Virus record (IMG/VR): IMGVR_UViG_3300038465_000091
Span: 1-64,000 of that record
DNA length: 64,000 bases
Source of the DNA: a virus
Reading direction: 5' to 3' (one strand)
The position numbers and the translations under genes were made by a program. Below, piece by piece: positions 16,261-62,694 of the stretch. The stretch's first letter is position 1, and each line of letters begins with the position of its first letter. A model generated the notes under the pieces. The model made no database searches. It worked only from the letters and a program-made list of their open reading frames with translations, and had not been told where the DNA came from.

Positions 16261-16339
16261 TGGTTGCAGAGGCTTGGAGTCGCACCAAGTACACCGTTCG
16301 GCTTATGAGGCCGATGAGCCGCAGTTGCTCGATCCCTGC
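16261..16339 (-). tRNA. tRNA-Met (CAU), overlaps HNH gene
   Basis: Anticodon loop CTCATAA on TCGGC/GCCGA; T-arm CTTGG-TGCGACT-CCAAG (TGC instead of TTC); encoded CCA. The 5' half is also the last 12 codons of the HNH gene, whose stop TAA lies in the anticodon loop. Could be elongator Met or, if lysidine-modified, Ile. Confidence 0.7.
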
Positions 16340-16686
16340 TTCAAACTTAACAATCCCGCGTGAACCTTGCGATGACAATTCTCACACAGAACCACGCACT
16401 TTGCAATCTCAGCTAAGACTCGTTCTCGACTGAATTGCCTTGCGATTGCGTATGCTATCGTAAATTCTTTCTTGTCCTTGTCCACGTGATGAAATGAAAG
16501 GCAGCAATAAGCCGTTTCAGGACACAACTTGCAGGACAATTTCAAAGACTGGAAGAGCTTTCGTATCTCCTCCTTGTACCGTTTCTTTCGCTGGCTAACC
16601 AGCCGCTTGTGCTCCGCTCTGTACACGGGATCGTTGTTGTAACGATCTCGAAGGTACTTTGCGTGTTTTGCAGGGGTAGTAGGCAC
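16303..16686 (-). CDS. HNH endonuclease ending inside tRNA-Met
   Basis: 127 residues from GTG 16686. The HNH core is CKLCPETAYCCLSFHHVDKDKKEF...CVVLCENCHRKVH. The last codons run through the 5' half of the tRNA-Met gene and stop in its anticodon loop. TATACT preceded by TGG lies 6 nt upstream of the GTG, predicting a leaderless mRNA. A partial tRNA 5' half is displaced just upstream (16703-16719). Confidence 0.85.
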   Translation of the reverse strand: MPTTPAKHAKYLRDRYNNDPVYRAEHKRLVSQRKKRYKEEIRKLFQSLKLSCKLCPETAYCCLSFHHVDKDKKEFTIAYAIARQFSRERVLAEIAKCVVLCENCHRKVHAGLLSLKQGSSNCGSSAS

Positions 16687-16692
16687 CCTACA

Positions 16693-16701
16693 AGTATACC
16701 A
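16693..16701 (-). promoter_or_regulatory. Extended -10 box TGGTATACT
   Basis: 6 nt before the GTG start of the HNH gene, at the junction with a displaced tRNA fragment. Confidence 0.5.
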
Positions 16702-16702
16702 C

Positions 16703-16719
16703 AGCCGCAACTCGATCCC
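16703..16719 (-). pseudogene. Displaced 5' fragment of tRNA-Met
   Basis: GGGATCGAG and TGCGGCT, separated by one base, match the 5' half of the intact tRNA-Met at 16261-16339 (same two blocks separated by four bases). It sits immediately upstream of the HNH gene, as if the gene had inserted into the tRNA and supplied a new 5' half. Confidence 0.55.
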
Positions 16720-59449: not shown

Positions 59450-59514
59450 ACTTTATTATACCGCAAAATGCAAGGATTTACCTCACTCATCCGTTTATAT
59501 AAGTGGAGGCAACC

Positions 59515-59724
59515 ATGTGCGACTGTGGATGTAAGGAAGGGAATCTGTGCAACCTGCACCAATTCATCTGGGAAACTCGAATGAAGGCTCAGCAAGTGCT
59601 AGACAACATGCCGCCTCCTACGCGATGGCAGCGATTCAAGCAGTGGGGGACGACGGGCGGTTCGGATTTCGATTGGGTAACGTTCTTGGTGGTGCTGGTG
59701 TTGTTGAAAGCAATCTTTGGATAA
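59515..59724 (+). CDS. Small membrane protein with CDCGC motif
   Basis: 69 residues; N-terminal CDCGCKEGNLC and C-terminal membrane helix (VTFLVVLVLLKAIFG). AAGTGGAGG precedes ATG. Plus strand. Confidence 0.6.
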   Translation: MCDCGCKEGNLCNLHQFIWETRMKAQQVLDNMPPPTRWQRFKQWGTTGGSDFDWVTFLVVLVLLKAIFG

Positions 59725-59726
59725 AT

Positions 59727-59765
59727 TGGAGGCGTTTACGGGAGTCGAACCCGTCATTTTTAGTT
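59727..59765 (-). pseudogene. Displaced 3' half of a tRNA-Glu
   Basis: From the anticodon loop (TTTCAA) through T-arm ACGGG-TTCGACT-CCCGT to acceptor AAACGCC and CCA. The 5' half is missing: the HNH gene starts instead. Confidence 0.65.
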
Positions 59766-59785
59766 GAAAGTCAGTATTGTAGTAC

Positions 59786-60283
59786 ATGGAAACCCAAACC
59801 TGTACTAAATGCCGCGACCCCAAATCTGTAGATGAGTTCGCCTTCAAAAGTAAGGCGGCGGGCAAGCGCAACTCGTGGTGCAAGTCATGCCAAAAGCCCT
59901 ACAAAGACCAGCATTACCAAAACCACAAACAAGTGTACATCAAGAAAGCTCACGAGTATCGAGCGGATTACAAAGCGCGGATTTATGCTCTCCTCGCCGA
60001 ATACTACAAGCAACACCCGTGTGTCGATTGCGGGGCGGATGACTTCATTGTTTGTCAATCTGACCACGTGAGGGGCAAGAAGTTTGAGGGTATCTCAAGG
60101 CTTATTCAACAGGATGCTTCGTGGGAAAGAATACTAGAAGAACTTAAGAAGTGTGAGACTCGATGCGCTAATTGCCACATGCGAAAAACAGCCAAGCAAT
60201 TTGGTTGGTACAAAGATTTGGTAGCGTACAGGGGAATCGAACCCCTCATCATTCGCTTGAAAGGCGAAGGTCCAAACCGATAG
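59786..60283 (+). CDS. HNH endonuclease inserted in tRNA-Glu
   Basis: 165 residues. CTKCRDPKSVDEFAFK, CKSCQKPYKDQ zinc ribbon, then PCVDCGADD...CQSDHVRGKKFEG, CANCHMRK. TATTGT lies 5 nt before the ATG. The last 21 codons run antisense through the 3' half of the intact tRNA-Glu at 60219. A displaced tRNA-Glu 3' half lies upstream. Confidence 0.88.
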   Translation: METQTCTKCRDPKSVDEFAFKSKAAGKRNSWCKSCQKPYKDQHYQNHKQVYIKKAHEYRADYKARIYALLAEYYKQHPCVDCGADDFIVCQSDHVRGKKFEGISRLIQQDASWERILEELKKCETRCANCHMRKTAKQFGWYKDLVAYRGIEPLIIRLKGEGPNR

Positions 60284-60294
60284 ACGGGTACGCC
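60219..60294 (-). tRNA. tRNA-Glu (UUC)
   Basis: Loop CTTTCAA on TTCGC/GCGAA; acceptor GGCGTAC/GTACGCT; encoded CCA. Its 3' half overlaps the convergent HNH gene end. Confidence 0.92.
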
Positions 60295-60310
60295 ATTGGA
60301 CTTCTAAAAT

Positions 60311-60385
60311 TGGTGCGCCGTGAGGGATTCGAACCCCCGATCTTTTGCGTGTCATGCAAACGATTTGCCACTAATCTAACAGCGC
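60311..60385 (-). tRNA. tRNA-Val (GAC)
   Basis: Loop ATGACAC on TTTGC/GCAAA; acceptor GCGCTGT/ACGGCGC; encoded CCA. Confidence 0.9.
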
Positions 60386-60386
60386 G

Positions 60387-60484
60387 TGTACCCGAGAGGG
60401 ATCGAACCTCCGACCTGCCTCCAGCAACCCATGCCGAAGCATAAAAGCTGATGGAGACCGCTCTGCCGGTTGAGCTACAGGCAC
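60387..60484 (-). ncRNA. tRNA-like RNA with 23-nt insert in anticodon loop
   Basis: Acceptor GTGCCTG/CGGGTAC and normal D- and T-arms, but the anticodon loop is 30 nt and contains ATGC-TTCG-GCAT. Either an intron-containing tRNA or a non-decoding tRNA-like RNA. CCA not encoded; it abuts tRNA-Val. Confidence 0.55.
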
Positions 60485-62313: not shown

Positions 62314-62694
62314 TTAAATGCGTTTCAATACCTGTGCTTCTTCAAAAGTCGCTAGGCGGTGATGATTAGCACAAAGCACATCACACTTTGCGGCTTCTCG
62401 CTTCACTCGTACAAGGGACCAACCCTTCTTACGGGTTTCAGATAAATTCAGTTCTTTTGTCGCCCTATCGCGATGGGCAAAATCTAAACAGACTGGATGT
62501 TCCCGCCATCCGCAAACTTTACAACCCATCTCCATTTTGTAAGCGTCCAGCCATTGACAAATAACGGCTATCCGCTTTTTATCATTCTTCCGCACCGCTT
62601 TCAAGTGTCGTGCCTTCCGAACTGGATCGGCGTAATACCGCTTCCAGTACCCAGCACGATATTCCTTGCGCTTCTTGCAATCCTTCAACGGCAT
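62314..62694 (-). CDS. HNH endonuclease between tRNA-Asp and tRNA-Cys
   Basis: 126 residues, basic N-terminus, then CKVCGWREHPVCLDFAHRDRATKELNLSE...CDVLCANHHR. ATG lies 5 nt after the tRNA-Asp CCA and the stop lies 4 nt before tRNA-Cys, without a ribosome site, so tRNA processing would release a leaderless message. Confidence 0.85.
   Translation of the reverse strand: MPLKDCKKRKEYRAGYWKRYYADPVRKARHLKAVRKNDKKRIAVICQWLDAYKMEMGCKVCGWREHPVCLDFAHRDRATKELNLSETRKKGWSLVRVKREAAKCDVLCANHHRLATFEEAQVLKRI

Follow-up and report, generated by a model that had tools for sequence, protein, structure and literature searches.

Anatomy of the tRNA-Glu locus

Towards the right end of the window, by which we mean the whole 64,000-nucleotide stretch of viral DNA analysed here, an HNH endonuclease gene (59786–60283, plus strand; 165 aa, PHROG 2255) separates a fragment of one tRNA-Glu(ttc) gene from a complete copy of another. 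Read along the minus strand, tRNA-Val(gac) (60311–60385; ARAGORN) is followed after 16 nt by the complete tRNA-Glu(ttc) (60219–60294; ARAGORN, and 45.8 bits with the cmscan tRNA model), taken here as the rescue or replacement copy, then by the HNH gene in antisense orientation, 12 nt, and a 47-nt remnant of the resident tRNA-Glu(ttc) gene (59727–59773). The remnant, recognized from its sequence and its alignment to the tRNA-Glu(ttc) of a related locus, L011, corresponds to tRNA positions 29–76. It comprises TGA (the end of the 5′ anticodon strand), the anticodon loop CTTTCAA (59764–59770, minus; TTGAAAG on the plus strand), the T-arm, the acceptor strand AAACGCC, and CCA, with the break point in the 5′ strand of the anticodon stem. 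A preliminary description of this DNA had reported a 3′ half at 59727–59765 that stops at the anticodon loop; the remnant is real, but it is slightly longer and reaches into the 5′ anticodon strand. It is not called as a tRNA by cmscan, as expected for a half gene. A further TTGAAAG occurs at 59704–59710, about 60 nt to the left of the copy in the remnant, and may be there by chance.

Two other elements of that description were borne out. The HNH gene does end within the complete tRNA-Glu: the part conserved in the HNH family spans 59786–60214, and the reading frame stays open, antisense, into the tRNA. The 3′ half of the complete tRNA is also unlike the displaced one, with acceptor strand GTACGCT versus AAACGCC and anticodon strand GCGAA versus TCACA (the latter in L011), while the loop CTTTCAA recurs (60257–60263, minus; TTGAAAG on the plus strand). 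The match between the remnant and the adjoining tRNA exceeds chance, and its z-score of 9.3 is the highest in a scan of 44 loci, followed by L043 (Gly(tcc)), L099 (Gln(ttg)) and L020. The complete tRNA-Glu(ttc) was located once in the 223-kb record, where its next-best place is tRNA-Glu(ctc) at 80%, and a 28-mer taken from the remnant likewise has a single hit when up to 3 mismatches are allowed. The element had been described as carrying only a nuclease, and the HNH gene is indeed the sole open reading frame of more than 100 aa within the inserted stretch.

An intact tRNA-Glu gene in a relative

The preliminary description proposed a search for relatives with an empty tRNA-Glu site equal to the displaced 3′ half. 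Such a search, with the neighbouring metallophosphoesterase gene as query, returned five loci, of which L011 was the useful one (79% protein identity to the window at this gene). There, an uninterrupted tRNA-Glu(ttc) follows tRNA-Val(gac), syntenic to the window site with the tRNA-Val as anchor, and no HNH gene is present. A 27-base remnant pattern containing one Y matches a single stretch in viral_contigs, which lies in the contig of L011; neither an exact 31-mer of the remnant nor the exact pattern of the complete (new) tRNA has a match in viral_contigs, the window's own record being excluded from these scans. The acceptor strand of the remnant pairs 7/7 with the 5′ strand of L011, compared with 5/7 for the 5′ strand of the complete tRNA in the window. 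The intact L011 gene therefore matches the remnant, and the claim that an element entered a tRNA-Glu gene at the anticodon is supported, with the anticodon arm as the place of entry. The complete tRNA-Glu(ttc) replaces the broken gene, in keeping with the earlier view that tRNA function was preserved.

Origin of the complete tRNA-Glu

In the preliminary description, the element brought its own 3′ half and thereby rebuilt the tRNA. Entry of a unit stands, and a unit limited to a 3′ half is less supported. The stems of the complete tRNA are self-consistent, with an acceptor stem of GGCGTAC/GTACGCT (7/7) and an anticodon stem of TTCGC/GCGAA; the corresponding stems of L011 are GGCGTTT/AAACGCC and TGTGA/TCACA, and both differ from those of the complete tRNA on both strands. 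An L011-like 5′ acceptor strand would pair 6/7 with the new 3′ strand, and an L011-like anticodon strand TGTGA would pair 3/5 with GCGAA (counted by hand). Because the stems of the complete tRNA pair better together than with the old gene, arrival of a whole tRNA, accompanied by loss of the host 5′ half, is favoured over a chimera.

A chimera is nevertheless the main rival to the whole-tRNA reading. It supposes that the element consists of the HNH gene and a tRNA 3′ half only, and that the complete tRNA is a host 5′ half joined to the element 3′ half and later adjusted by mutation. Such a gene would need host-side changes in both stems, and the 5′ half of the complete tRNA is not closest to the L011 gene, matching its Glu(ttc) at 25/31 positions and the phage's own Glu(ctc) at 28/31 (a count made with one D-loop base removed). 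Moreover, the units in L018, L020, L042, L149 and L273, discussed below, carry a whole tRNA. On the other hand, the window has only a 3′ remnant; the 5′ remnant predicted by whole-tRNA arrival is missing, and none is found in the 16 nt between the complete tRNA-Glu and tRNA-Val. The 5′ remnant of L099 has the acceptor strand of its complete tRNA, and that of L068 nearly so (both by eye), and fungal mobile ORFs act in this manner on protein genes, according to the part of PMC3630166 that treats them. A displaced native part is present, as a working hybrid gene would leave behind, and stem pairing does not favour a hybrid origin. We regard the chimera as the less likely reading, at about one in four, although the 6/7 pairing leaves more room for it and therefore lowers the odds of the rescue-tRNA reading a little.

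The HNH protein and its relatives

The window protein matches PHROG 2255 (HNH endonuclease; E 9.2e-28), as do 35 members of the family alignment, and a Cys4 zinc ribbon and the HNH residues are invariant or at least 90% conserved among 30 aligned members, consistent with an intact homing-type nuclease domain. Its AlphaFold2 model is confident (mean pLDDT 94.6, pTM 0.74). Matches were to HNH families only, and the GIY-YIG class of SegB is not represented. No significant HNH match was obtained for the window protein in Pfam, and as a single query it matched nothing in viral_contigs or in a PDB sequence search. An HNH profile gave only weak PDB matches (Hpy99I, E 0.027), and Foldseek returned 23 PDB matches to the model up to E 10, none at 0.001 or better. 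The gene is flanked by the tRNA parts rather than housed in an intron or intein; for 59480–60420, cmscan reported no intron family with E up to 10.

We gathered HNH relatives from IMG/VR and bacterial genomes, keeping the best 80 per scan with no requirement for a tRNA, and removal of near-duplicates left 267 of 320 loci (187 viral and 80 bacterial). Within this best-80 sample, a tRNA lies within 60 nt of the HNH gene in 75/187 viral and 55/80 bacterial loci, while 112/187 viral and 25/80 bacterial loci are tRNA-free over that distance, which counts against the rescue reading. The right-hand tRNA is on the strand of the HNH gene in 95/102 loci, and the window belongs to the antisense minority. 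Among the best 80 bacterial loci (L189–L268), the right-adjoining tRNA is Arg(tcg) in 25 of 48 cases, 17 of which we take to be from Patescibacteria.

Several of these bacterial loci have CTTCGGA-like inverted repeats before the HNH start codon (by eye). Likewise, an inverted repeat of the anticodon loop precedes the HNH start in L020, L043, L273 and several bacterial loci (by eye); in L273, at about 1958–2000, the repeat AACTTTTAACT ... AGTTAAAAGTT resembles the Lys(ttt) anticodon loop (by eye). None was seen by eye before the HNH start in the window. Our guess is that such a repeat might be an operator resembling the homing site, by analogy with I-TevI as treated in the relevant part of PMC2988022.

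The phage encodes further HNH genes. HNH2 (window 62314–62694, minus), of the same PHROG, sits tightly between tRNA-Asp(gtc) and tRNA-Cys(gca), and a search for a half-tRNA footprint at this locus found none. HNH3 (window 16303–16710, minus) ends at the 5′ end of tRNA-Met(cat) (16265–16339), and the ~17 nt before it weakly resemble the 5′ half of that tRNA (z 2.7). HNH4 (G000 133182–133478, plus; locus L015 1471–1803) lies between two tRNA-Gln(ttg) genes with its stop codon inside the second, and showed no footprint in the 44-locus scan. The weak or absent footprints at these three loci count against the rescue reading.

Split tRNA genes in relatives

The arrangement in the window is part of a repeated pattern. 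A 5′ half, the HNH gene, a complete tRNA and a 3′ half follow one another in L018, L020, L042 and L149, and the split and complete genes share an anticodon (acg, ccg, ttt and gca, respectively). Each of the four has a fully paired (7/7) acceptor stem between its separated host halves, whereas the host 5′ strand pairs with the 3′ acceptor strand of the complete tRNA at 5, 0, 5 and 4 of 7 positions, in the same order. L273 has the four-part order too, with Lys(ttt). At least five HNH relatives therefore carry this footprint, cut near the anticodon and accompanied by a complete tRNA of the same anticodon. In L019, a complete tRNA precedes the HNH gene.

As a broader survey, the HNH gene and its tRNA were removed in silico, the flanks were joined, and ARAGORN was run on the product alongside control joins. 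A tRNA was rebuilt in 6/64 loci versus 0/128 controls (16 further loci were too short), and, with redrawn gene ends and more loci, in 12/245 versus 0/735 controls (39 more too short), although several of the 12 are doubtful. Four of them, L018, L019, L020 and L273, seem genuine and restore the same anticodon as the adjoining tRNA has. Calls were mixed for L042 and L274; in the latter the halves can be paired by eye, and the split gene's anticodon is unreadable. Also among the 12 are L272 and L083, taken up below. L149 joined in the first test and not after gene ends were redrawn. For L019, L120 and L135 in the first test, the 5′ part comes from a complete tRNA at left; a separate 5′ half of L019 also joins in the redrawn-ends test. 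Inspection by eye led us to distrust the joins of L189, L069, L293 and L297 (redrawn ends) and of L135 (first test).

A library search for half-tRNAs, with complete tRNAs masked, also covered 157 loci and 316 controls, at scores of 30 and 26. At a score of at least 30, sense 5′ halves before the HNH gene were found in 13/157 loci versus 5/316 controls and antisense 3′ halves in 5/157 versus 1/316, while the two kinds that were not predicted gave 8/157 versus 9/316 and none versus none. The 13 sense hits include L084 and L087, seemingly copies of one locus. At a score of 26, the sense 5′ enrichment shrank (24/157 versus 29/316) and the antisense 3′ enrichment was gone (16/157 versus 32/316), with 27/157 versus 45/316 and 9/157 versus 20/316 for the kinds not predicted. 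Because the enrichment fades at the lower score, the half-tRNA signal sits in the strong matches.

These footprints bear on the alternative that the HNH protein does not target the tRNA. The HNH gene would then simply have settled in a tRNA array, the remnant would be a decayed duplicate of tRNA-Glu, and the complete tRNA would have arrived by ordinary recombination. Although tRNA arrays do recombine, and many family members are not beside tRNAs, such an account sits poorly with a remnant that ends in the anticodon arm with the HNH gene starting 12 nt further, with halves and adjoining tRNAs that repeatedly share an anticodon, and with the failure of every control join to rebuild a tRNA. We consider it improbable, even with the HNH-free tRNA replacements between near relatives described below.

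Anticodon specificity and position of the break

The 7-base anticodon loop of the right-adjoining tRNA recurs, in either orientation, within 130 nt before the HNH gene in 14/58 viral or window loci and 16/48 bacterial loci, compared with about 1.1 and 0.9 expected from loops of other anticodons; the bacterial loci are related to one another, so nominal probabilities for this match come out too low. Inspection by eye turned up two discordant loci: in L084 the half is Met-like and the tRNA next to it is called Thr(cgt), and in L057 a CAT-like loop adjoins Ile(tat). In addition, tRNA genes of L272 and L083 are apparently split by an HNH gene with no rescue tRNA beside them. All four count against the rescue reading.

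In sense insertions, the 5′ parts end at approximately positions 38–44 (by eye), and the antisense part in the window begins at 29; within the anticodon arm, these positions nearly mirror each other. Split and complete genes have the loop in common, and the stems differ in most pairs read, the exception being L043, where the two anticodon arms are the same, contrary to the rescue reading. A shared loop with differing stems suggests, from comparison of the sequences, how a rescue tRNA could escape cutting.

tRNA alleles in near relatives

Presence or absence of the HNH gene was compared in four pairs of phages (PegLeg/LilhomieP, Shifa/JustHall, Anedea/Riptide and Myrna/Phabba), with tRNAs paired in order by anticodon. 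PegLeg, which we take to be a cluster M phage, carries members of this HNH family and is listed as one species with LilhomieP. At the tRNA-Met site, PegLeg has the HNH gene and one tRNA allele, while LilhomieP has no HNH gene and another allele; at the tRNA-Pro site the situation is reversed, with the HNH gene in LilhomieP and absent from PegLeg. Fourteen further records (13 phages, including LilhomieP), with flanks 99.7–99.9% identical, match the PegLeg Met site in two pieces and cover 773 rather than 1251 bases, as would follow if they lacked the HNH gene; among these, the LilhomieP sequence was read.

Across the four pairs, seven presence/absence events were found, and in six the adjoining tRNA is only 0.50–0.80 identical between the phages (Tyr; Pro; Met; Pro and Trp; Leu; Asn). 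At the seventh, the Shifa Thr site, the adjoining tRNA is 0.99–1.00 identical. Expressed per tRNA, 7/13 near a presence/absence HNH gene are at or below 0.80 identity, compared with 6/59 below 0.8 among tRNAs without an HNH gene, and where the HNH gene is in both phages all four tRNAs (4/4) are identical. The six HNH-free, strongly changed tRNAs occur in L352/L353 (Gly, Val) and L358/L359 (Pyl-like, Glu(ctc), His, Ala), and could reflect either past HNH visits or another route. Presence or absence of the HNH gene with replaced flanking sequence is thus seen among relatives; for the window itself, L011 is the one empty-site relative, and it is more distant than the members of these pairs. Two further cases are less easily accommodated by rescue: phage Bmoc has an HNH-linked tRNA-Leu allele without an HNH gene, and crAss001 has a unit of tRNA-Gly(gcc) and HNH gene that is absent from the two HNH-free relatives compared, with the downstream tRNA-Gly(tcc) the same in all. 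The unchanged Shifa site and the HNH-free replacements weigh against rescue as well.

Discussion

Together with the intact site in L011, the four-part footprints in relatives and the altered alleles of tRNAs adjoining HNH genes in close relatives, the anatomy of the window points to a free-standing HNH homing endonuclease that targets tRNA anticodon arms and is inherited with a rescue tRNA that has the same anticodon but a diverged sequence; we put the probability of this reading at roughly two in three. The HNH protein would cut a tRNA gene in or beside the anticodon arm, and in a phage with an empty allele it would break the resident gene. Repair by homing, from the HNH-bearing copy, would then install the HNH gene and its own tRNA, an immediate substitute for the broken one. 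The rescue tRNA would keep the loop, which is needed for decoding, while its other stems may spare it from the nuclease. Such a course of cutting, insertion and rescue would fit the anatomy. In the window, the resident tRNA-Glu(TTC) would have been left as the 3′ remnant, with loss of the host 5′ half, and the complete tRNA-Glu(TTC) beside the HNH gene would be the rescue copy. A wider proposition is that HNH proteins each tuned to one anticodon arm have spread through phages and some bacteria as a natural home-and-rescue system, supplying cut-resistant tRNAs of the same anticodon and driving part of the turnover of phage tRNA arrays; we hold the case for it to be evenly balanced.

Group I introns and integrase-driven elements both use tRNA genes. 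That the locus is one of these, with the HNH gene as passenger, is very improbable, as the HNH gene stands 12 nt from one tRNA part and a few nt from the other, too little space for an intron core, no intron families reached the gathering score in 12 relatives, and the insert encodes no integrase, its sole open reading frame above 100 aa being the HNH gene.

Several known systems share parts of this arrangement. According to the relevant sections of PMC13096335 and PMC2988022, SegB drives both the spread and the amplification of T-even tRNA genes and has homologs located close to tRNAs. Like the HNH protein as interpreted here, SegB of phages T4 and T6 is a free-standing homing endonuclease in a phage tRNA region and is linked to tRNA genes. 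However, it is a GIY-YIG enzyme with an intergenic target, inserted between tRNA-Arg and tRNA-Ile, and those sections describe no anticodon-arm footprint or same-anticodon rescue tRNA (PMC13096335, PMC2988022). Mobile ORFs of fungal mitochondria carry replacement gene ends, as in Allomyces atp6 and Glomus atp6, atp9, cox2 and nad3, and similarly place an endonuclease ORF and a foreign replacement part in a conserved gene, with the native end left behind (PMC3630166, in its account of these ORFs). They differ in encoding LAGLIDADG or GIY-YIG enzymes and in replacing only the carboxy end of protein genes, (PMC3630166, same account); here the enzyme is HNH, the gene is a tRNA gene, and the units of relatives bring an entire replacement gene. 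HNH genes in mycobacteriophage tRNA arrays have been called implicated in tRNA diversity (passages in PMC5966550 and PMC6409571, citing a 2014 cluster M paper), with no mention in these passages of insertion into anticodon arms or of allele replacement. Part of PMC10448857 deals with phage nuclease genes located at exchange boundaries. A further parallel is with synthetic home-and-rescue and Cleave-and-Rescue drives, as outlined in portions of PMC7968924 and PMC7951863, in which an essential gene is disrupted by a nuclease and its loss made good by a linked, recoded copy; those drives are engineered, use programmable nucleases and operate in insects, whereas the present system would be natural, with a tRNA as the rescued gene. 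Our search of open-licence papers found none describing HNH insertion into an anticodon arm with a same-anticodon rescue tRNA.

If the proposed reading is true, engineered rescue drives would have a natural counterpart, and the target of a nuclease in this family could be guessed from the anticodon of the neighbouring tRNA. At the bacterial Arg(tcg) loci, the element may depend on the rescue gene if that gene is the only copy. For phages, the proposed reading would represent a mechanism for fast tRNA allele replacement in tRNA arrays.
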